From Bacteroidetes bacterium GWF2_35_48 (GTDB taxonomy: Bacteria > Bacteroidota > Bacteroidia > Bacteroidales > GWF2-35-48): 64,000 nucleotides of DNA. Made by a program: the position numbers and the translations under genes. Positions 35,479-49,190 of this stretch are shown one piece after another. The stretch is taken from assembly GCA_001769125.1 (NCBI GenBank), contig MEOG01000082.1, positions 82,747 through 146,746 of the forward strand, given 5' to 3'. The notes under the pieces were generated by a model. It had not been told where the DNA came from. It searched no databases and saw only the letters and a program-made list of their open reading frames with translations. The stretch's first letter is position 1, and each line of letters begins with the position of its first letter.

Positions 35479-35663
35479 GTGTCTGTCTATAAAGTCAGTG
35501 TTTAGTTCAGAATGTTCGAGAGCAAGCCTGCCTTGCCGGTAGGCAGGGCTTTCGAAGAATTGAAAACCAAGGAGTTTACTTTTGTAAATGACTGTTTTCA
35601 ATTCGAGGGTAACGCAGCTACTTGCCTGCAAGCAAGCAGCTATCGGACATTATGGACAAACAC
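35479..35663. mobile_element. MITE-like element, type B, with TAATTA target duplication
   Basis: This 185-bp element starts GTGTCTGTCTATAAAGTC and ends in the approximate reverse complement (GACATTATGGACAAACAC). The flanks 35473-35478 and 35664-35669 are both TAATTA. Inside are GGCTTTCGAAG, an 11-bp stem GAATTGAAAAC / GTTTTCAATTC enclosing GTTTAC-TTTT-GTAAAT, and GTAACGCAG. A CCTGCCT/AGGCAGG hairpin is nested at about 35529-35549. It carries no transposase. Confidence 0.82.
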
Positions 35664-36845: not shown

Positions 36846-38090
36846 ATGTTATCTGAACAGCTTATAGAAGAAGTAATACTTGATCAAAGAAACTATTTAA
36901 TAAAAAAAGATAGAGGAATTGATCGTGAAATTGATTTTGAAAGAATTATTTCAAGCAAGCAAATTGTTGTAATCACAGGAATACGTCGTTCAGGGAAGTC
37001 AACACTATTAAGGCAAATAGCAGCAAGATTTAAAAATTTTAATTACATAAATTTTGATGATGAGCGCTTGTTTAATTTTGATTTGTCCGATTTTCAAAGA
37101 TTAATGCATTTGTTTAAAAAAGAGTCTGATTCAAACATATTTTTATTAGATGAAATACAAAATGTGGCAGGATGGGAGCGCTTTATTCGCAGAATTCATG
37201 ATGAAGGGAATAAAATTTTTATAACCGGAAGCAATGCAAAGCTTCTAAGTTCTGAATTGGCAACGCATCTTACAGGGCGTTATCTTAAAATAGAATTGTA
37301 TCCTTTTTCATTTCGGGAATTTCTGACATTTTCGAAAATTAATGATAAAAAACGAACTTCTGATAATAAAGCAATAATACTAAAAGCATTCGACAAATAT
37401 CTTGCAGGAGGTGGATTTCCTGATTATATTACCTGCAATGATATTCATTATCTGCAAAACATATATGAAGATATAATTTTCAAAGATTTAATTGCAAGAT
37501 TCGGTATCAGAAACAGTAAAACCTTCAAAACCCTTGCACATTATTTGTTCACAAATTTCACAAAAGAAATAAGCTATAATTCATTAAAGGATATTTTACA
37601 AATAAAGAATGTAAACACAATAAAAGATTATATTGATTATCTACAGCAATCGTATCTTATTTTTGAATGCTATAAATATGATTTTTCCCTAAAAAAACAA
37701 ATCATATACAACAAAAAAGTTTATTGTATAGATAACGGACTCAGAAAAAGTATCTCATTTAGTTTTTCTACCAATTTGGGACATTATCTGGAGAATTTAA
37801 TTTATCTCGAATTGCGTAGAAGAAATGCGGAAGTATTTTTTTACAAAACAGCACAGAATTATGAGGTGGATTTTTTAGTAAAGGAGAAAAAAATATTTAT
37901 TATGCAAGTTTGTTATTCGCTCGATGATGCAAAAACAGTAGCAAGAGAAAAACGCGCATTGATTGAAGCCATGAAAGAGCTGAAATTAAAAACTTCAACA
38001 ATAATATCTTACAATCAGTATGATTTATTTAAAGAGGATGGCTTTCAGATTGAAATTATTCCTGCATGGAATTGGTTGTTAAATAATTAA
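36846..38090 (+). CDS. AAA ATPase with DUF4143 C-terminus (copy 1)
   Basis: This 414-residue protein carries Walker A GIRRSGKST at 45-53 and Walker B IFLLDEIQN at 98-106. The sensor FITGSNAKLLSSELATHLTG follows, then the YPFSFREF linker. The C-terminal DUF4143 part ends in YEVDFLVKEKKIFIMQVCYS, a PD-(D/E)XK-like strand pattern (E..D, then a Q-V core). Proteins of this family are widespread, often in accessory DNA; a nuclease-like role for DUF4143 is suspected but unproven. The paired direct repeats upstream may be a control site. A truncated AlbA/RecG-like gene begins 2 bp after the stop. Confidence 0.9.
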   Translation: MLSEQLIEEVILDQRNYLIKKDRGIDREIDFERIISSKQIVVITGIRRSGKSTLLRQIAARFKNFNYINFDDERLFNFDLSDFQRLMHLFKKESDSNIFLLDEIQNVAGWERFIRRIHDEGNKIFITGSNAKLLSSELATHLTGRYLKIELYPFSFREFLTFSKINDKKRTSDNKAIILKAFDKYLAGGGFPDYITCNDIHYLQNIYEDIIFKDLIARFGIRNSKTFKTLAHYLFTNFTKEISYNSLKDILQIKNVNTIKDYIDYLQQSYLIFECYKYDFSLKKQIIYNKKVYCIDNGLRKSISFSFSTNLGHYLENLIYLELRRRNAEVFFYKTAQNYEVDFLVKEKKIFIMQVCYSLDDAKTVAREKRALIEAMKELKLKTSTIISYNQYDLFKEDGFQIEIIPAWNWLLNN

Positions 38091-38091
38091 A

Positions 38092-38901
38092 ATGTTTCAA
38101 CAAGCTGAAAACACATTGGCAATATTAAAAACTAAATATCTTTTAAGCCCAATTACTTAGTGTCAGCAAGAAAACTCTAGTGATTGATAAGAAAAGTTCA
38201 ATTTCAAGGCTTTCGAAGCCTGAAAAAGCGGAGTTTACTGATGTAAATGAGCACTTTTCAGGCGAGAGTAACGCAGAAAGTGGACTTTTCTTGCAAGCAC
38301 TACTTATGAAAGGGTTCATCGTCGAGAGTTATTAGAATATCCTTATGATGCTTTGCGCGAAGCTGTTTTTAATGCTATCATACATCGCGACTACAATACT
38401 ACTTCTGCAATTCAAATTAAAATTTATAGCAACAGATTAAGTATTTCAAACGAAGGTAAATTGCCCCCTGAAATTACAATCGAAGATTTAAAACGAGAAC
38501 ATTTATCGAAATCCCGAAATAAACTGTTGGCAGATATTTTTTACAAAGCAGGGTTAATAGAAAGTTGGGGTAGAGGAACACTTAAAATTTTTAGTGAATG
38601 TAAAAAAGCACATATCCCGGAACCAAATTTTTATGAAGAACATGGTGTCGTGAAAATAATCTTTGAAATGAAAGGCTCTGATGTATTGTCTTTAAACGGG
38701 GGATTAAATGAGAACTTAGTAAATATTAATTCATATATTTCAAAAAATCCCGGCAAAAAAACAATTGAAATAGCTGATGCTACCAACACTCCTTTTTAAA
38801 CCCTTGAAAAGTGGTTGAAAAAACTTAAAGATGCTGGTTTAATAAAATTTGTTGGCAGCAAAAAAACAGGAGGCTATTGGTCAATTGATAATCCAGCTTA
38901 A
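38092..38901 (+). pseudogene. Truncated AlbA/RecG-like ATP-binding gene, interrupted by a MITE-like element
   Basis: The frame starts MFQQAENTLAILKTKYLLSP and is cut at 38159 by the element 38160-38300. Removing the element and one TACTTA restores PITYERVHRRELLEYPYDAL, then REAVFNAIIHRDY, the hallmark of the HATPase-like RecG-related C-terminal half. The N-terminal AlbA_2 domain is absent: the fragment abuts the ATPase gene. A second lesion, TAA at 38797-38799, interrupts the winged-helix end, which continues in frame as TLEKWLKKLKDAGLIKF and closes with GGYWSIDNPA. The family is Schlafen/AlbA-like and found in phage-defence and regulatory settings. Confidence 0.88.
38160..38300. mobile_element. 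MITE-like element, type A, with TACTTA target duplication
   Basis: At 141 bp it is the shortest copy. The ends are GTGTCAGCAAGAAAAC and CTTTTCTTGCAAGCAC. Flanks 38154-38159 and 38301-38306 are both TACTTA. Inside, AAGAAAAGTTCA pairs with TGGACTTTTCTT and CCTGAAAA pairs with TTTTCAGG around the core GGAGTTTAC-TGAT-GTAAATGA. Excision in silico rejoins the host reading frame. Confidence 0.88.
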
Positions 38902-39083
38902 ATTTGTTAAATGCCAAAAATGTTTTTTGAAAAATATAACTGAAATAAAATTAAATTTACAAAACTGAACTGACATGATTATGGTCTTTTGATTGTAGAG
39001 AGCATTATCGTTCAGAAATAGAGATTTCAGAAAATGAAAGTGTTGAAGTATAATGTGAAGTAGCAATAAATAATTATTCAAGC

Positions 39084-39119
39084 TATAGTTTGTAAAAATA
39101 AGTATATTTACAATCTATA
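39084..39119. promoter_or_regulatory. Inverted repeat before ATPase copy 2
   Basis: TATAGTTTGTAAA (39084-39096) is mirrored by TTTACAATCTATA (39107-39119), 12 of 13 positions, with a 10-bp spacer, ending 10 bp before the start codon. A third half-site, ATTGTAAAT, touches the ATG. It is probably an operator. Confidence 0.55.
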
Positions 39120-39129
39120 AATTGTAAAT

Positions 39130-40413
39130 ATGGAAACAACTTTAATAAATCAAAATAAACATTGGACAGGGAAAAAGTATGCAGGGCTTATCAATAGGCA
39201 ATTGTTGCAACGTTTATTGTTGCATAAAAACACCAAAGAAGTACAAATTCTTTTAGGTATCAGACGCAGTGGTAAATCAACAATGTTTAAATTATTTATT
39301 AATGAATTATTAAAAAATAAATCAGGGAAAACAGTTCTTTATATAAATTTTGATGATCCAAATTATTATGAGACTTGGAAAAATGCATCTTTAATTTATA
39401 GAATAATAGAGGGAGCTGAAAAAATTACTTCAGGAAAAATACAGTATTTATTTTTAGATGAAATACAAAATGTAGATGCATGGGAGAAATTTGTAAAAAG
39501 TATTTATGACTCTGGTGTGTTTAAAAAAATTTTTGTTACGGGTTCAAATTCTTCTTTACTTGAAGGAGACTACACCAAGATGCTTTCAGGAAGATATATC
39601 GCGCATTATGTTTATCCATTGTCTTTTGATGAAATAAAAAGTTTTGAAAAAATAAATAATCAAATAAGCCTCTTGCAGAATAAAAGCAAGGTAATGGTTC
39701 TTTCAGAAAATATTTTACAATATGGTTCTTTTCCGGAGATATTTAAGCAGAAAAAACAACAGGTAAAAGAAGATATTTTAAATAGTTACTTTGAAACAAT
39801 TCTTTTAAAAGATTGTATCGCATCAAAAAATATCAGAGATATAAGAACCTTTAAAGAATTTACGATTTATTTAATTTCGAATCTTGCTACACCTTACTCA
39901 TACAATAGCATTGCAAAAGCTATTGGAAGCAACGATGGAACAATAAAAGACTATTTCGCAAGCCTTTCAGATGCGTTTTTAATTTATGAAATTAATCAGT
40001 TTTCCTTTAAATTTAAGGAGCAGATAAAATCGAATAAAAAAGCATATTGTATTGATAATGGGCTTATACATATTGCCTCTGAAAAATTTTCCGCAAATAG
40101 TGGAAAAATTTTTGAAAATTTAGTGTTTAATGAGTTGATAAAACTAGGATTTAATCAGATATATTATTACTCTGATAATGCAGAATGTGATTTTATTGTA
40201 AAGCAAAATAGAACATTGATGGCATTTCAAGTATGTTTTGAATTGAATGCAGGTAATATAGATAGAGAAAGAAGTGGGATAGAAAAAGCAATGAAGCAAC
40301 TTGGAATTACTATTGGATATATTATTACTATGGATAAGCCCTCAATAAAAACAAACAAGAATGAAGTGATTCCTTTTTGGGAGCTTGAAAAAATAGTAAA
40401 GTTAGTAATTTGA
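39130..40413 (+). CDS. AAA ATPase with DUF4143 C-terminus (copy 2)
   Basis: The 427-residue protein has Walker A GIRRSGKST at 43-51, Walker B LFLDEIQN at 107-114 and the sensor VTGSNSSLLEGDYTKMLSG. The C-terminal DUF4143 core reads NAECDFIVKQNRTLMAFQVC, keeping the D and Q of the nuclease-like pattern. It is full length and apparently intact. It is only moderately similar to copies 1 and 3, so the copies are old paralogues or separate arrivals rather than recent duplicates. A strong dyad lies directly upstream. No partner gene is adjacent: the island remnant of a DegT aminotransferase follows. Confidence 0.9.
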   Translation: METTLINQNKHWTGKKYAGLINRQLLQRLLLHKNTKEVQILLGIRRSGKSTMFKLFINELLKNKSGKTVLYINFDDPNYYETWKNASLIYRIIEGAEKITSGKIQYLFLDEIQNVDAWEKFVKSIYDSGVFKKIFVTGSNSSLLEGDYTKMLSGRYIAHYVYPLSFDEIKSFEKINNQISLLQNKSKVMVLSENILQYGSFPEIFKQKKQQVKEDILNSYFETILLKDCIASKNIRDIRTFKEFTIYLISNLATPYSYNSIAKAIGSNDGTIKDYFASLSDAFLIYEINQFSFKFKEQIKSNKKAYCIDNGLIHIASEKFSANSGKIFENLVFNELIKLGFNQIYYYSDNAECDFIVKQNRTLMAFQVCFELNAGNIDRERSGIEKAMKQLGITIGYIITMDKPSIKTNKNEVIPFWELEKIVKLVI

Positions 40414-40446
40414 TTAATGCGATAAATAAGTTTAAACAAAATCACC

Positions 40447-40485
40447 ATGATGAAATTTGTAGACTTACAAAAAAAACAACATTAA
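40447..40485 (+). pseudogene. 5' stub of a DegT/DnrJ-type aminotransferase
   Basis: The frame MMKFVDLQKKQH then stop resembles the start of sugar aminotransferases (usually M-K-F-V-D-L-Q followed by about 360 more residues). It is followed at once by AACATTAACCGAATGAACAT repeat sequence. The same stub with the same about 100-bp downstream block recurs at 47692. Confidence 0.5.
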
Positions 40486-40708
40486 CCGAATGAACATCAA
40501 CTCTCGCTGCCTTCGTCGCCGCTCAGTCAGCGTTAACTCAGAACCCGGAACCCACAACAAACACCTTAGTTTCTTTGCGCTTCCGCCGCGGAGACTCTAA
40601 GTTACCAAGAAACACAAAGAAATCTATATTTATGTAGCAATGACAAATAAACAATCTATTTCATTTAAACATTTTCAAAGTTAAAGAGCTTGATTATTAA
40701 ATAAAATC
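40486..40708. repeat. Intergenic hairpin repeat block
   Basis: CGCTG (40505-40509) and CAGCG (40528-40532) flank the loop CCTTCGTCGCCGCTCAGT, followed by AACTCAG/AACCCGG heptamers and AT-rich sequence. Confidence 0.65.
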
Positions 40709-40832
40709 ATGAACAAATCTATTCAAATAAAAGTTAAGGGTGTTTCAATTTCTGTATTTAAAGTAGAAAAAGAAGATTATATTTCTTTAACAGATATGGT
40801 AAAAGGATTTGGCGACGACACAATGATATATA
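40709..40832 (+). pseudogene. KilA-N domain gene fragment, truncated by a MITE-like element
   Basis: The first 41 codons read MNKSIQIKVKGVSISVFKVE, then KEDYISLTDMVKGF and DDTMIYS. This is the start of a KilA-N DNA-binding domain, as in phage antirepressor-type proteins. The element beginning at 40833 ends the homology. Unlike the other insertions, the rest of the gene is not found on the far side of the element, so the 3' part was lost. The apparent frame running on to 40918 is element sequence. Confidence 0.8.
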
Positions 40833-41015
40833 GTGTCAGCAAGAAAACTACTCTTTTTTGCTTGACAGTGCTAGTGTCAGATAAGAAAACGTCAAATACA
40901 AGGCTTTCGAAGTCATGAAAACCAAGGAGTTTACTTTTGTAAATGACTGTTTTCAATTCGAGAGTAACGCAGCTACTTGCCTGCGGCAGGCAGGTCGGAC
41001 ATTATGGACAAACAC
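40833..41015. mobile_element. Chimeric MITE-like element (type A left end, type B right end)
   Basis: This 183-bp copy starts GTGTCAGCAAGAAAAC as type A and ends GACATTATGGACAAACAC as type B. Its right half from about 40917 nearly matches the copy at 35479-35663. Flanks differ: TATATA on the left (40827-40832), TAATTA on the right (41016-41021). It holds the core GGAGTTTAC-TTTT-GTAAATGA; the left arm pairs over only 7 bp with the right arm. Confidence 0.8.
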
Positions 41016-41020
41016 TAATT

Positions 41021-41080
41021 AATAAAAATAAAGTATTTATTATTGCAGAATTATCTGCTAACCATAACAATGATTTTTAA
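41021..41080 (+). pseudogene. 5' fragment of a neuB/pseI-type synthase gene
   Basis: The frame reads NKNKVFIIAELSANHNNDF then stop. It matches residues 4-22 of the intact synthase at 63649 (NKNKTFIIAELSANHNNSFD). The start codon is missing, because the MITE-like element ends 6 bp upstream, and the rest of the gene is absent. Confidence 0.75.
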
Positions 41081-41189
41081 AAGAAAATTTTTAAATGAGG
41101 GATTAAGAAATCCGAAAACCTAAAACAAAACATGAAAAAGAGATTTCGTTGGGTTCATTTTGGAAATAATTTAACTAAATGTTTTTTCA

Positions 41190-42794
41190 ATGCCTTTACC
41201 CATTAATATTGAGCAATTACTTGCGGCTAATAAAGTGGAAAACAACCGAATTGAATTTAAGTCTGGTTGGAATCCTGATGCAATTTACCGAACGGTATGC
41301 GCTTTTGCCAACGATTTTGATAATACAGGTGGTGGCTATATCATTATAGGCGTTGAAGAAGAAAAAGGCATTGCAAAACGACCAGTTAAGGGGTTGAATG
41401 ACATGGAATTAGATCATATTCAAAAGCAGATGGTAGGTTTTAATAAGCTTATTGAGCCTTCTTTTTTTCCATCTGTTTCCATTGAAAAAGCAGATGATCA
41501 AAACATTGTCGTAATGTGGGTTATGGCTGGCGCTTCACGCCCATACAAAGTGCCTGAATATATAACGCACAAAATTAAAACATACCGCTACTATATTCGA
41601 TATAATTCCTCTACAATAGTACCGAAAGGAGATATCGAACAAGAATTAATTTCGCTCAGCAATCAAACTCCTTTTGATGACAGAGCAAATTCACAAGCAA
41701 CTTATGCAGATATATCTAAAGTACTAATCCATGACTATCTAACTGCTATCAATAGTAGATTAGCTAATGATTTGGAGACGCATGCTATCGAAGACGTTTT
41801 AAAACAAATGGATTTATTAGTTGGCAGCTCTGAAAAATACAATATTAAAAATGTTGGAATTATGATGTTCTGCGAACAATCTTTTCGTTTTTTCCCATAT
41901 ACACAAGTTGATATTGTTATTTTTCCTGAAGGTAAATTAGAAAATCCGGGAAAGTTGATTGAAATTCCACCTATTAAAGGACCTGTTCATTTAATTATTA
42001 AACAAGTTCTCAGTTATTTGCGAACAAATATTATTAAAGAGAAAATTATTAAAGTTGAAAACATGGCTGAAGCTAATCGAATTTTCAACTACCCTTTTGA
42101 GGCATTTGAAGAAGCTGTTGTGAATGCGCTTTTTCATCGCGATTATCAAATACAAGAGCCTGTTGAAATTACTATTGAACCAAATAAAATTGAAATTATT
42201 AACTATGGAGGACCACACCGATCAATTAAATACCAAGATATAAAAGCTGGTAAAATTTTTAGAGCTCGACGCTATCGTAATCGTAGGTTAGGTGAGTTTC
42301 TTAAAGAGCTTAATTTAACCGAAGGTAGAAGTACCGGAATCCCAACGATTCAAAGTGTTTTAAATAAAAACGGATCACCCTTAGCATTATTCGATACTGA
42401 TGATGAAAGAACCTATTTTCTTGTTGAGTTTCATTGTCACTCAAAGTTTAGTAATTCATTAAATTTTCTTGATTATGATAGTGTTGAGATAAAGGATAAA
42501 GTAACAGGTCAAGTAACAGGTCAAGTAACAGGTCAAGTAACAGGTCAAGTAACAGGTCAAGTAATTGATGAGACGGTATTAAAACTCTTACAAATTATTG
42601 CCAGTCAACAGCTGACAGTAAAAGAAATGATGCAAATGTTAAGCTTAACAGGTCGTGATAATTTCAGAAAAGGATATTTATTACCAGCTTTACAAGCAGG
42701 TTGTCTGGCTATGAAGTTTCCGGATAATCCTAAACATAGAAATCAAAAATATTTATTAACAACAAAAGGATTAAAAGTTCTGAAAGAACAGTAA
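41190..42794 (+). CDS. AlbA_2/RecG-like ATP-binding protein
   Basis: This 534-residue protein looks intact. Its N-terminal AlbA_2 (Schlafen-type) domain carries ENNRIEFKSGWN at 17-28 and CAFANDFDNTGGGYIIIGVE. The RecG-related HATPase-like half carries FEAFEEAVVNALFHRDYQ, then NYGGPHRSIKYQDIKAG and EGRSTGIPTIQSVL. Five exact 12-bp repeats at 42501-42560 (GTAACAGGTCAA) give a VTGQ linker. A winged-helix-like C-terminus follows (TVKEMMQMLSLTGRDNFRKG). The family binds nucleic acid, and some members serve in defence or regulation; the precise role here is unknown. Confidence 0.88.
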   Translation: MPLPINIEQLLAANKVENNRIEFKSGWNPDAIYRTVCAFANDFDNTGGGYIIIGVEEEKGIAKRPVKGLNDMELDHIQKQMVGFNKLIEPSFFPSVSIEKADDQNIVVMWVMAGASRPYKVPEYITHKIKTYRYYIRYNSSTIVPKGDIEQELISLSNQTPFDDRANSQATYADISKVLIHDYLTAINSRLANDLETHAIEDVLKQMDLLVGSSEKYNIKNVGIMMFCEQSFRFFPYTQVDIVIFPEGKLENPGKLIEIPPIKGPVHLIIKQVLSYLRTNIIKEKIIKVENMAEANRIFNYPFEAFEEAVVNALFHRDYQIQEPVEITIEPNKIEIINYGGPHRSIKYQDIKAGKIFRARRYRNRRLGEFLKELNLTEGRSTGIPTIQSVLNKNGSPLALFDTDDERTYFLVEFHCHSKFSNSLNFLDYDSVEIKDKVTGQVTGQVTGQVTGQVTGQVIDETVLKLLQIIASQQLTVKEMMQMLSLTGRDNFRKGYLLPALQAGCLAMKFPDNPKHRNQKYLLTTKGLKVLKEQ

Positions 42795-42833
42795 ATAAAA
42801 TTTTTTTAAAGTAGTGAACCAGATAAAATTATT

Positions 42834-42884
42834 ATGACCCATAAAACATTCATCATAGCCGAACTCTCAGCCAATCATAACAAC
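42834..42884 (+). pseudogene. 5' stub of a second neuB/pseI-type gene
   Basis: MTHKTFIIAELSANHNN matches the start of the synthase at 63649, then runs into repeat sequence (AACCGAACATCAACTAATC). Only 17 codons survive. A start codon is present here, unlike the fragment at 41021. Confidence 0.75.
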
Positions 42885-43202
42885 AACCGAACATCAACTA
42901 ATCTTCAAACCAGCCTGCCAGTTTACCAACTTTGATTGGCAGGCAAGGTCTTTTATGCTGAGCTTCGGTCATTGAGCCTCGGTCATTGAGCTTGTCGAAA
43001 TGCCGAAATGCCGAATCATCAAATAAAACATCAACCAAACATCAACTCCCGCTGCCTTCGAGAACCTCAGTCAGCGTTAACTCAGAACTCAGAACTCGGA
43101 ACGAACACCAATTAATTTTTAAATCTTTTACATTGAGCGTAGTCGAAATGTCAAATTAACTAATCTTCAATCGCCGCGGCGATCAAATAATCTAACACCA
43201 AA
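42885..43202. repeat. Intergenic repeat block
   Basis: Contents in order: CGAACATCAAC words; a CCTGCCA/TGGCAGG hairpin around 42914-42946; TCATTGAGCTTGTCGAAATG words near 42970-43000; a CGCTG/CAGCG hairpin at 43050-43076; AACTCAG heptamers; CATTGAGCGTAGTCGAAATG near 43133; and the palindrome CGCCGCGGCG near 43172. No gene. Confidence 0.7.
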
Positions 43203-43381
43203 ATGATCCCCTTCAACAAACCCTATCTCACAGGCAAAGATGCCCATTACATTTATCAGGCAGTATATTCCGGTAAAATTTCTGGCAACGGAGAATTCAC
43301 AAAAAAAATGCAGACGCTTTCTTGAAGATCAATACGGGGTTAAAAAATGTTTGCGGGCAAAATACAGTATGAATTGGTTAA
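43203..43381 (+). pseudogene. 5' fragment of a WecE/RffA-type sugar aminotransferase
   Basis: MIPFNKPYLTGKDAHYIYQA, then VYSGKISGNGEFTKK, is the start of a dTDP-4-amino-4,6-dideoxygalactose transaminase-like protein. An extra A in the run near 43302 shifts the frame; in the shifted frame KKCRRFLEDQYGVKKCLR continues the family pattern. Homology then ends. It is dead and truncated. Confidence 0.8.
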
Positions 43382-43409
43382 ACACATCACAGTAAACATG
43401 TAATTATTT

Positions 43410-43531
43410 TTTTACAAATTTGCGCATATTTGTAAAATATAAAGCACAAAAATGCGATTGTAATCTGCGGAATGAGACAGGTAGGAAAAACTAACCTTAT
43501 GCGTCAGTTCTATGATATAACAATATTATAA
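43410..43531 (+). pseudogene. Palindrome plus Walker A remnant of a fourth AAA/DUF4143 ATPase
   Basis: A 28-bp dyad (TTTTACAAAT, TGCGCA core, ATTTGTAAAA; 43410-43437) precedes a frame reading NAIVICGMRQVGKTNLMRQF, then stop at 43531. GMRQVGKT is an AAA_14 Walker A motif. The rest of the gene is missing. The dyad looks like the surviving operator. Confidence 0.65.
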
Positions 43532-43672
43532 GGAAGGCGAGCATATTAAAGTGGCAACTGACAAGGAATACTTAACAGTTCAAGTGTAAGGCTCAAAAAA
43601 GTTTGGCAGTTAGTAAACCTTGAGAATTTTTTTAGATTAAACAATAATAAAATCATAAAGAATTTATTCCAT

Positions 43673-43705
43673 ATTTGCTAGTTTAATGAATAAAAAACAG
43701 CAAAT
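43673..43705. promoter_or_regulatory. Inverted repeat before ATPase copy 3
   Basis: ATTTGCT at 43673-43679 and AGCAAAT at 43699-43705 are exact inverse complements, 21 bp before the start at 43727. Its position is comparable to the dyads before ATPase copy 2 and the remnant at 43410. Confidence 0.4.
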
Positions 43706-43726
43706 TTGTTCAGTATAACATATTAA

Positions 43727-44983
43727 ATGATTAAAAATATTCTATATCAACAACAGGAAGAGCGCAATAGTTTGTTAAAGCAAGCTTATGTTGAGCGAAT
43801 CGATGCTGCAGTTAAAAAGGAATACCTGGCAACAGGGCTTATTAAATTGATTACCGGACCACGCCGATCCGGGAAATCTGTTTTGTCGTTTCAGTTATTG
43901 AAAGAAGAAAATTTTGCGTATCTTAATTTTGACGATGATTTATTGTTAAAGCACTTTGATGAAAATAAAGTGATTCAAACTTTAAATGAGGTATATCCAG
44001 ATTATCGTTATCTTTTTCTGGATGAAATCCAGAACTTACCTAATTGGGAATTGTGGGTAAATAAACTGTATCGTAGAAATAAAAATCTTATTGTAACGGG
44101 CTCTAATGCAAGGCTTCTTTCACGGGAAATGGCTACATCCCTCACAGGGCGATATATACAAATAACTGTTTTTCCTTTTAGTTTTGCAGAAGTTTTACAT
44201 TTTCATAAAGTATCCCCGGTTGCTAAAACACCACAAAAAGTCGGAGTAATACAGGGCTATCTAAATACCTATGTACAAAATGGCGGTTTCCCTGAAACTG
44301 TTTTAAATCCTTCCATTCTTAAAAATTATTTATCTACCTTGTTTGATTCTGTACTTCTAAAAGATATAATGAAGCGTTTTCAAATAAGGCAATCGCAGCA
44401 ACTTTACGATTTGTCAAATTATTTATTGACGAATTATACCAATCAATATTCTTTTAATCAACTTAAAACGGATTTAAACTTTCATAGTGTTCCCACCGTT
44501 CAAAAATTTATGGGGTACTTATCAGAGCCTTATTTATTTTTAAATTTAACCAAATATTCAACAAAAGTCAAGACTCAGCAAAAATCGCCTAAAAAATCAT
44601 ATATCATTGACAATGGATTTATAAAAGCTCGTTCTTTTGAACTTTCACCTAATTATGGAAGATTGCTTGAAAATGTAGTATTCATTGAATTATTACGAAG
44701 ACAATACAAATTAGAATTAGACCTTTTTTATTACAAAACTCGCAACGACAAAGAAATAGATTTTGTATGCAGAAAGGGACATATCGTGGAGCAATTAATT
44801 CAGGTTTGCTACGATATTTCAAAACCAAAAACATTGAAAAGAGAGCTAGATGCTCTAATAGAAGCTTCATCAGAATTAGCTTGTGATAAATTAATACTGA
44901 TTACCTGGGATAAAGAAGACGTAATAGAAAAAAACGAATATAAAATTCAATTGGTGCCGGCCTGGAAATGGTTGAGTGAATAA
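43727..44983 (+). CDS. AAA ATPase with DUF4143 C-terminus (copy 3)
   Basis: The 418-residue protein has Walker A GPRRSGKS at 44-51 and Walker B LFLDEIQN at 96-103. The sensor VTGSNARLLSREMATSLTG and the VFPFSFAEVLHF linker follow. The DUF4143 end carries NDKEIDFVCRKGHIVEQLIQ and then VCYD. It is full length and intact. Its last 8 bp overlap the start of a truncated AlbA/RecG-like gene, the same arrangement seen after copy 1. The role is unknown; the family is typical of mobile accessory DNA. Confidence 0.9.
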   Translation: MIKNILYQQQEERNSLLKQAYVERIDAAVKKEYLATGLIKLITGPRRSGKSVLSFQLLKEENFAYLNFDDDLLLKHFDENKVIQTLNEVYPDYRYLFLDEIQNLPNWELWVNKLYRRNKNLIVTGSNARLLSREMATSLTGRYIQITVFPFSFAEVLHFHKVSPVAKTPQKVGVIQGYLNTYVQNGGFPETVLNPSILKNYLSTLFDSVLLKDIMKRFQIRQSQQLYDLSNYLLTNYTNQYSFNQLKTDLNFHSVPTVQKFMGYLSEPYLFLNLTKYSTKVKTQQKSPKKSYIIDNGFIKARSFELSPNYGRLLENVVFIELLRRQYKLELDLFYYKTRNDKEIDFVCRKGHIVEQLIQVCYDISKPKTLKRELDALIEASSELACDKLILITWDKEDVIEKNEYKIQLVPAWKWLSE

Positions 44984-45533
44984 ATTTATAGACAAGAAAA
45001 TAATTTATCATTTATTAAGCAATAATTACAGTTCGCAAATAAGGAATAAATTAATTGCTAAAGCATTTAAAGAAGCGGGTGTAATTGAAAAATACGGCTC
45101 AGGAATAAAACGCATTTTTGATATTTGTGCAGAATACGGTATTGTTCAGCCTCATATTGAAGAAGTTTTTAATGGGTTTAGGTTTGTTTTATTTAAAGAA
45201 AAAGTAACAACGGGTAATTATTTTTTTGATAAAACTACTGAAAAGGGCACCGAAAAGGTCACCGAAAAGGTTACCGAAAAGGTTACCGAAAAGGTCGGTG
45301 AAAAGGTCGGTGATAATGTCACCGATAAGGTCGGTGAAAATCTATCAAAGAATCAGAAGTCAATAATAAAATTGATATCAGCAAATAATAAAATTTCAGA
45401 TAGACAATTAGCACAGCAAATAGGTATTTCTGTCAGAAAAACAGAAGAAAATATTGCAAAATTAAAATCTGCAGGATTCCTTAAGCGCATTGGCCCTGCA
45501 AAAGGCGGCAATTGGCAAATAATCAAACAATAA
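44976..45533 (+). CDS. C-terminal part of an AlbA/RecG-like protein (probably a truncated gene)
   Basis: The frame opens with a GTG inside the end of ATPase copy 3 and encodes 185 residues. From about residue 15 it reads LSNNYSSQIRNKLIAKAFKE, then AGVIEKYGSGIKRIF, the end of the HATPase-like half. The AlbA_2 and ATP-binding segments are missing. A tetrapeptide linker of TEKV, GEKV and TDKV units follows (about 45229-45340, 12-bp repeats), and then a winged helix (KISDRQLAQQIGISVRKTEE) ending in RIGPAKGGNWQIIKQ. It may be expressed as a DNA-binding fragment by coupling, or be a pseudogene; I favour the latter. Confidence 0.65.
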   Translation: MNKFIDKKIIYHLLSNNYSSQIRNKLIAKAFKEAGVIEKYGSGIKRIFDICAEYGIVQPHIEEVFNGFRFVLFKEKVTTGNYFFDKTTEKGTEKVTEKVTEKVTEKVGEKVGDNVTDKVGENLSKNQKSIIKLISANNKISDRQLAQQIGISVRKTEENIAKLKSAGFLKRIGPAKGGNWQIIKQ

Positions 45534-45988: not shown

Positions 45989-47684
45989 ATGATTCCCCAA
46001 ATAGGCGTTTTTATTAGCAGTGTACAATCAGAATTTGCAGAAGAACGCAAACTTTTAATTGATTATCTTAAATCGGATAGTCTTTTAGGAATGTTTTTCG
46101 TGCCTTTTATTTTTGAGCAATTACCTGCAACAAATCATTCGGCAACTTCTGTTTTTCTTAAAGAAGTAGAGCGATGTGATATCTATATCGGGCTTTTCGG
46201 TAAAGAATATGGTTTTCAAGACACCGAAGGCGTTTCCCCAACAGAAAGAGAGTTTAATCATGCATGTCTTCATTCTAAAACCCGACTGATTTTTGTTTGT
46301 AATCAAAACGCAGAAATAAGGCATAGTAAGGAAATAGCATTGATTAAAAAAGCAGAACAATTGGTTGTAAGAAAAACATTCTCAACTTTTGCTGAGTTAA
46401 AAGCTTCCGTTTATGCTTCTCTTGTCAGATATTTAGAAGAAAAAGAGTTTATCAGAACGCTTCCCTTTGATGCAGCTTTTAATAATAAAGCAAACCTTGA
46501 TGATATAAATTTTGATAAAATTGTTGAATTTGTCCGAATTGCAAAAGCAAAAAGAGGTTTCCCTTTACCTCTTGAGTCTTTGCCGGAAACCATACTTACA
46601 CATCTGAATTTATTAGATAACAATCGCTTGTGTAATGCCGCAATTTTATTGTTTGGAAAACAACCACAGCGATTTTTTATTACTTCAGAAATTAAGTGTG
46701 CACACTTTCATGGTTTAGAAATTGTTAAACCCATACCCTCTTATCAGGTTTATAAAGGAGATGTTTTTCAATTGGTAAATCAGGCTGTTGATTTTGTGCT
46801 TTCAAGAATAGATGTTACTGTGGGAACAAGAGATGCCGGTACACAAGTTCCTGTAAGGTATGAACTACCGCAAGCTGCCGTAACCGAAGCCATTGTAAAT
46901 GCTATTGCGCACAGAGATTATACAAGTAATGGAAGTGTTCAGGTTATGTTATTTAGTGTCAGCAAGAAAACTCATGTTTTTTTGCATAAAAAATCAGTGA
47001 CTGATAAGAAAACAGCAAGTGCAAGGCTTGCGAGGATTGAATGTCAGGAGTTTACTTGCGTAAATGACTGACGTGAAAGACGAGCGTAACGCAGCAATTG
47101 CTGTTTTCTTGCAGGCACTATTTAAAGATCGGCTTGAAATATGGAATCCCGGTAGTTTACCCTATGGTCTTACCATAGCAAAGCTTAAAGTGCCTCATAG
47201 CTCCATGCCTGCTAATCCTTTACTCGCTGAATCTATGTATTTAGCAGGTTATATAGAAAGGATGGGTACCGGAACAGGCGATATTATTCGGCAATGTTAT
47301 GATTGGGGTTTGAAAGAACCGGAATTTATTCAGGAAGAAGTTTTTAAAACAGTAATCTGGCGCACCGTGCAAGCTACCGTGCAAGCTACCGTGCAAGCTA
47401 CCGTGCAAGCTACCGTGCAAGCTGACGAAGATTTAAATTTAGCTGCATCAGATTTTGTAAAAAGAGTTGTTCTGGTTTTGTCAAGTGAATTAAAAAGATC
47501 TGAAATTCAAGGTGCATTAGACTTAAAGCATCGCGATAATTTTGTTGAAAATTATCTTACTCCGTCTGTTGAATCAGGTTATATTGAAATGAAATATCAG
47601 AATAATCCGAATCATCCTCAACAGCGTTACCGTTTAACCCCCAAAGGAAAAAAACTTAAAGAAGCACTCGAAAAAAATAATTAA
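45989..47684 (+). pseudogene. DUF4062 + RecG-like ATP-binding gene interrupted by a MITE-like element
   Basis: The upstream part encodes a DUF4062 domain (IGVFISSVQSEFAEERKLL, then YIGLFGKEYGF) and a linker. The ATP-binding half follows (LPQAAVTEAIVNAIAHRDYT). The element 46956-47118 interrupts it after NGSVQVMLF. Removing the element and one TATTTA gives KDRLEIWNPGSLPYGLTIAK in frame, and the whole frame becomes 509 codons including stop. The C-terminus has five 12-bp repeats (ACCGTGCAAGCT, 47364-47423) and a winged-helix end. DUF4062 occurs at the N-terminus of defence-type proteins, where it is thought to be TIR-like. Apart from the insertion, no other lesion is seen. Confidence 0.9.
46956..47118. 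mobile_element. MITE-like element, type A, with TATTTA target duplication
   Basis: At 163 bp, its ends are GTGTCAGCAAGAAAAC and GTTTTCTTGCAGGCAC (14 of 16 positions inverse complementary). Flanks 46950-46955 and 47119-47124 are both TATTTA. AAGAAAACAGCAA pairs exactly with TTGCTGTTTTCTT, and GTCAG pairs with CTGAC around GGAGTTTAC-TTGC-GTAAATGA. Confidence 0.9.
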
Positions 47685-48325: not shown

Positions 48326-49190
48326 ATGAATCAGGGCGAAATTATATTATACCAGCCTATTGGTACCCAAAATTTTCAAATCGAAGTAAGAATTGAAGAT
48401 GAAACAGTATGGCTTACACAGAATCAGATGGTTGAATTATTTGACTCGTCTAAGCAAAATATTAGCCTACATATAAATAATATTTTTAAAGAAGGGGTAT
48501 TAAACAAAAACTTAGTTGTCAAGTATTCCTTGACAGCTGCCTCTGATGGGAAAAAATATAATATTGCATTTTACAACCTTGATGTAATTATTTCGGTAGG
48601 TTATCGTGTGAAATCTATACGTGGAACTCAATTCCGTATTTGGGCAAACAATGTTTTGAAAAATTACTTATTAAAAGGATACGCAGTACATCATCGTGTT
48701 GAAAAAATTGAAAAAAAACTGGTTGAGCATGACCAAAAATTTGATTTACTTATAAAAACGAACTCAACACCTAATGAAGGCATTTTCTATGACGGACAAA
48801 TATTCGATTCATATAACTTTGTTTCAAAGCTTATTAAATCAGCAAAAAATTCAATTATTCTTATTGATAATTATATTGAAGAATTAGTATTAACCTTGCT
48901 CTCTAAACGGAACAAAAATGTAACAGCAACAATACACAGCATCTGTTTCAAAACAATTGCATTTAGATTTGTTACGATTTAATGCACAATATCCAACTAT
49001 AGAGATAAAAACATTTTCTAAATCGCACGATAGATTTTTAATTATTGACAAAAAAACTGTTTATCATATTGGGGCATCACTAAAAGACCTTGGAAAGAAA
49101 GCCTGTGGTGAGCTTGTCGAACCATGGTTTGAATTTTCAAAAATTGAAATCAATGCATCAGAAATGATAAAGAAGCTAAAAAAACAATAA
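48326..49190 (+). pseudogene. Frameshifted rhuM (copy 3)
   Basis: The N-terminal two thirds are intact (MNQGEIILYQPIGTQNFQ, VWLTQNQMVELFDSS, GYRVKSIRGTQFRIWANN). Relative to the copy at 49207, two bases are missing around 48935-48945, so the frame breaks after KNVTATI. The second frame from 48957 carries LDLLRFNAQYPTIEIKTFSK and HDRFLIID. It also has an 8-residue insertion, ACGELVEP, encoded by a 24-bp palindromic repeat at 49101-49124 in place of nothing in the other copies. It is probably not functional. Confidence 0.85.
49101..49124. repeat. REP-like 24-bp insertion in a coding sequence
   Basis: TGGT-GAGCTTGTCGA-ACCA, a small hairpin, lies exactly between codons that are adjacent in the other rhuM copies (GKK | WF). 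The word GAGCTTGTCGAA matches intergenic repeats near 42985 and 48066. The insertion keeps the frame. Confidence 0.7.

Follow-up and report, generated by a model that had tools for sequence, protein, structure and literature searches.

MITEs are known from several bacteria. Within the Bacteroidales, Porphyromonas gingivalis carries MITEs with IS5-type ends (PMC4596501). Described bacterial examples include MITE239, MITEPgRS and BrickBuilt of P. gingivalis (PMC4596501) and MITEAba12 (PMC6382973), and a review is available (PMC2229807). The family that we report here resembles these elements in being short, present in multiple copies and devoid of a transposase gene, with inverted ends of the insertion-sequence type and target duplications. 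Our starting point was a single copy in the window, by which we mean the whole 64,000-nucleotide stretch of DNA from Bacteroidetes bacterium GWF2_35_48 that was analysed. We conclude with high confidence that positions 46956-47118 are a non-autonomous MITE, inserted at a TATTTA target of an otherwise intact DUF4062/RecG-C-terminal-like gene (GHKL-type ATPase), and that an ISNCY-family transposase is the likely agent.

The insert and its host gene

Read directly in the sequence, the 163-bp insert lies between two exact copies of TATTTA, at 46950-46955 and 47119-47124; it starts with GTGTCAGCAAGAAAAC and finishes with GTTTTCTTGCAGGCAC. Together with one TATTTA copy it amounts to 169 bp and thus puts the host frame off by one. 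In the ORF list, the interrupted frame ends at a stop at 47069-47071 after 360 aa, of which the last ~38 residues are encoded by the insert. When the insert and one TATTTA are removed, 509 codons including the stop are recovered, that is a protein of 508 aa. The features of the locus, with three related elements of the window, are the following:

45989-46954, plus strand: first 322 codons of the host gene (N-terminal part), ending ...VMLF, with DUF4062 and the first RecG-C-terminal/GHKL-like part (Pfam, homologue alignment)
46950-46955, no strand: left target duplication TATTTA (sequence; exact 6-bp duplication in 34 of 44 copies of this genome, consensus TANNTA)
46956-47118, plus strand: MITE with type A ends, 163 bp, containing no complete ORF (alignment of the family, census of copies)
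46956-46971, plus strand: left terminal inverted repeat GTGTCAGCAAGAAAAC (sequence, end comparison)
46996-47013, plus strand: inner end-like repeat AGTGACTGATAAGAAAAC, which pairs with the right end and closes a long hairpin (sequence, fold, alignment)
47021-47098, plus strand: hairpin core, conserved and with compensatory changes among family members (model R1, 75 bits)
47064-47684, plus strand: 206-aa ORF whose ATG lies inside the MITE, with an 8-nt overlap with the stop of the truncated frame, running into the C-terminal half (ORF list)
47103-47118, minus strand: right terminal inverted repeat, GTGCCTGCAAGAAAAC as read on the minus strand (16/16 positions shared with the ISNCY-like ends at contigs C19 and C103 of this genome)
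47119-47124, no strand: right target duplication TATTTA (sequence)
47121-47684, plus strand: C-terminal portion of the interrupted gene, (F)KDRLEIWNPGSLP..., with the remainder of HATPase_c_4 and the Fic-like_C winged helix (Pfam, separate homologue alignment)
35479-35663, plus strand: member of the family with ends of type B (GTGTCTGTC...), flanked by duplicated TAATTA and carrying the same core
38160-38300, plus strand: shorter type A element of 141 bp, duplication TACTTA and the same core
40833-41015, plus strand: hybrid element with a type A left half and a type B right half, its middle stem broken

Pfam recognised DUF4062 in the N-terminal half of the host protein (E=1.8e-19), as well as HATPase_c_4 (1.1e-18) and Fic-like_C (6.5e-20), while an NCBIfam search of both halves returned no family for either. 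We searched 247 genomes of the order with the N-terminal query (45989-46954) at E <= 1e-30. Matches were found in 14 of them, this genome included, and most lie in open frames of ~490-620 codons. A full frame could be extracted for ten homologues, and to each of them we aligned the N and the C part independently of one another, so that the joined protein was not relied on. In all ten, the last residue of the N part and the first residue of the C part coincide; in L138, for example, the N part aligns over 14-329 and the C part over 329-509. The one residue common to both alignments is encoded by the Phe codon that the TATTTA duplication has doubled. At the junction, VMLF/KDRLEIWNPG is found unchanged in L138, the nearest homologue, and in closely similar form in the others. 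Subtracting the identity of the N part from that of the C part gives +0.06 in the window gene and +0.02 (sd 0.05) among homologues. The C part is therefore no more diverged than expected, and the host frame has not decayed.

These alignments bear directly on an earlier note on this DNA, which had proposed an insertion with exact ends and a 6-bp TATTTA duplication whose removal gives back a 508-residue gene of 509 codons. Its coordinates are exact in the sequence, the two halves abut in homologues, and the frame without the insert and one TATTTA reads as proposed. The same holds for the conserved family motif that it saw at the junction, found identical in L138, and for the lack of any other lesion, both halves being undecayed and the C part free of excess divergence. 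Neither a differing junction nor a non-aligning downstream half, either of which the note took as grounds for rejection, was encountered in the ten homologues.

The insertion falls just 3′ of a conserved EAIVNAIAHRDY stretch and 5′ of DRLEIWNPGSLP. We take these two stretches to resemble the N box and the G1 region of the GHKL ATPase fold, so ATP binding by the host ATPase should be lost through their separation. The gene product itself would be lost or split by the insertion, and loss of the host protein's function is likely.

Tandem repeats of 12 bp, coding for TVQA-, TEKV- and VTGQ-type units, are found at 47365-47421, 45224-45343 and 42498-42557 of the window; in three neighbouring genes they sit in the linker from the RecG-C-terminal-like part to the winged-helix end, and their length is likely variable. 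In the region 36846-44983, RhuM-like genes have as neighbours a cluster of three ATPase genes of the AAA_14/DUF4143-like kind and several genes or gene fragments of the RecG-C-terminal-like type. A RhuM-like gene at 48326-49190 appears frameshifted.

A family of dispersed copies

The insert is 163 bp long and has neither a transposase gene nor a complete ORF; it ends in 16-bp imperfect terminal inverted repeats, is flanked by an exact target duplication and belongs to a set of multiple dispersed copies. This combination of a short, ORF-less sequence with inverted ends, a 6-bp duplication and many copies identifies it as a MITE, a kind of element that the earlier note had not named. Searching the 5.98 Mb genome with the end pattern TAGYGYYWGCAAGAAAA gave 135 matches, and the reversed-pattern control gave 0. 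Pairing of inward-facing ends yielded 45 elements. Since one of these (L112) belongs to genome G213, this genome has at least 44 copies, a lower bound based on the listed places and loci. An exact 6-bp duplication flanks 34 of the 44 pairs of this genome, whereas ~5 would be expected with shuffled partners (all 45 pairs); the duplications fit the target consensus TANNTA almost without exception. Thus chance is excluded as an explanation of the insert, because the same insert, ends and duplication type recur dozens of times in the genome. Most elements measure 162-164 bp, with additional forms of 141-143 bp and one of 36 bp. Among 41 copies checked, the insert at 46956-47118 is the only one to interrupt a long ORF. 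No family match was found in G001, the sole genome of the same genus that was searched.

The earlier note had also called the insertion recent. The undecayed host frame and the perfect duplication speak for this part, but the nearest other assembled copy (L002) is only ~92% identical to the insert, most others being at most 80% identical. A young insertion is thus moderately supported. The donor copy, for which the assembly holds no near-identical match, may be unassembled or may have been lost.

Several other arrangements were noted within the family. The complete type B element at 35479-35663 and the short type A element at 38160-38300 both lie within 12 kb of the insert. The hybrid at 40833-41015 is flanked by the unmatched TATATA and TAATTA, and its structure points to recombination between two elements in the core. 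At L014 and L026, adjoining elements share three copies of one 6-bp duplication, an arrangement that is an insertion into an existing duplication. The 36-bp element (L082 334-369; C27:31631-31670) consists of two facing MITE ends only, with an exact duplication TAAATA; it might be the minimal form able to move, or else the product of an internal deletion. Finally, palindromes of ~21 bp like CCTGCCTGTCCGGTAGGCAGG interrupt MITE cores at several points (L024, L025, L083 on C39, L085 on C4, L086 on C8, L096 on C57, and ~35525-35548 of the window), which gives the impression of a second, smaller repeat lodged within the MITE.

The probable ISNCY link and alternative readings

In the assembly of this genome, contigs C19 and C103 each end partway through an element whose interior is not assembled; its first 16 bp match the MITE right end at 16/16 positions. 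The next ~75 bp resemble ISNCY left ends and include GTTAATAACTT, a sequence whose like is found inside the left ends of the C19/C103, L165 and L166 elements. Starting from a similar end in a Prolixibacteraceae MAG, we traced an insertion sequence of genome G125 that encodes an ISNCY-family transposase. Protein searches then gave two intact ISNCY elements: L165 (1849 bp, 495-codon ORF, ends GTGTCTGAAAGAAAAC, duplication TATATA) and L166 (1844 bp, 509-codon ORF, ends GTGYCTCTAAGAAAAC, duplication TATTTA). Their NF033593 scores are 384 and 377 bits, respectively, for a curated cut-off of 325, and the ends of both follow the form GTGYCT..AAGAAAAC, with exact 6-bp duplications. In this genome, a divergent ISNCY copy (L136), also above the NF033593 cut-off, has type B ends GTGTCTGTCCATAA and a TAATTA duplication.

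In the G125 element, the transposase is found in two overlapping frames that meet at a run of A (L134 776-837), which could reflect either programmed slippage or a lesion. Its flanking 6-mers, TAAGTA and TATTTA, do not match.

From the ISNCY elements with like ends and duplications, and from the ends at C19 and C103, cut-and-paste transposition in trans by an ISNCY transposase is the best explanation for the move of this copy and, judging from sequence comparison, the most likely one. The transposase, made elsewhere in the cell, would bind the 16-bp ends of the MITE (DDE transposition). The strands of the MITE would then be joined to cuts staggered by 6 bp in a TANNTA target, and repair of the gaps would duplicate these 6 bp.

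Other routes to the same arrangement deserve to be weighed. It is conceivable that the MITE owes its move to a transposase from outside the ISNCY family that happens to use similar ends, given that no complete ISNCY element with exactly these MITE ends is assembled in this genome, so that the transposase is not read directly. This possibility seems very unlikely to us, because ISNCY elements in genomes G047 and G038 share the GTGYCT..AAGAAAAC ends together with exact 6-bp TANNTA duplications, and because the only full ISNCY copy of this genome, L136, has the type B ends of sister MITEs with the same core. The core also forms a strong, though imperfect, hairpin, and genes for Y1 (RAYT/IS200-like) transposases are present in the genome, which could suggest a REP-type hairpin moved by such an enzyme. 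Y1 transposases act on single strands and leave no duplication. The exact 6-bp target duplications and the inverted ends contradict this origin, and the core was found near none of the 11 Y1 transposase loci examined (ten in this genome, one in G009); we therefore reject it as hardly credible. An autonomous candidate at C105:23473-26050 proved to be a complete 143-bp MITE and an unrelated farther end with ordinary genes between them. The insertion-sequence end had no match in plasmids, and one match of the end pattern in a viral contig, in an ordinary phage gene and without a partner end, was taken as chance.

A further alternative concerns the host rather than the transposase. Through the overlapping stop and start ATGACTGA at 47064-47071, the MITE might allow both halves to be translated, giving a functional or regulated protein in two pieces. 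Indeed, the 206-aa ORF begins in the insert and continues in the C-terminal frame, from which a C-terminal piece could still be made, and that half has no excess divergence. A young insertion explains the lack of decay equally well, however, and all ten full homologues are uninterrupted at the insertion point, so we regard a two-piece protein as improbable. We retain the insertion of a MITE into an intact gene, probably by an ISNCY transposase, as the preferred reading.

The folded core and comparison with known systems

A core of 79 nt is common to elements with type A (GTGYCWGCAAGAAAAC), type B (GTGTCTGTCYATAATGTC) and third-type (GTGTCTCTAAGAAAAC) ends, the last found in genome G595, outside the order. 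Over 34 core sequences, pairing reaches 95% at its 19 pairs, whereas sliding the partner lowers it to 32-49%. Both sides have changed in 13 pairs; covariation scores 0.44, compared with 0.04-0.09 in the slid versions. The apex shows sequence conservation, as do two loop segments that face each other, CAAGGCTTKCGA and CGAGMGTAACGCAG. No Rfam family matched the core above its gathering score. We also considered that the core might be an internal remnant of ISNCY; model R1 has no match within the ISNCY copies examined, the single match at such a copy (L090 160-238) lying outside the element end.

Such compensatory changes can reflect selection for the fold, but repair of the palindrome by template switching could also keep the arms complementary. 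That selection maintains the core as a folded nucleic acid, either RNA or single-stranded DNA, which has a role of its own and is not passive filler, is a tentative proposal that we find somewhat doubtful; transposition, regulation or a benefit to the host would be examples of such a role. A core-like hairpin was also seen in G009, 3′ of an apparent tRNA gene and without recognisable MITE ends (L067 1501-1580).

While an insertion of this kind is a normal event for MITEs, the open-licence papers searched contained no account of MITEs linked to ISNCY in Bacteroidota. The family is apparently undescribed so far, and its core is unusually well conserved. The locus provides base-exact empty-site proof for a MITE family of Bacteroidota, through one of its rare gene-disrupting copies. 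It also connects the family with the ISNCY transposases, which have received little study, and gives a clear rule for the target: TANNTA with a 6-bp duplication. The presence of a covarying core in elements with unlike ends makes it a testable question why small transposons keep a folded middle.

Compared with known systems, the family resembles ERIC, Correia-NEMIS and RUP in being made of small palindromic mobile elements that can fold into long hairpins; those elements have TA duplications and other transposase families. With the ISNCY family (NF033593) it shares ends of the form GTGYCT..AAGAAAAC or GTGTCTGTCC... and the 6-bp TANNTA duplication. It differs from ISNCY insertion sequences in that the MITE has no transposase, has little in common with them beyond the ends and carries a core that is absent from the ISNCY elements examined. 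Unlike the MITEs of P. gingivalis with their IS5-type ends, it has ISNCY-type ends and a TANNTA target, and its conserved hairpin core is shared across elements with different ends.
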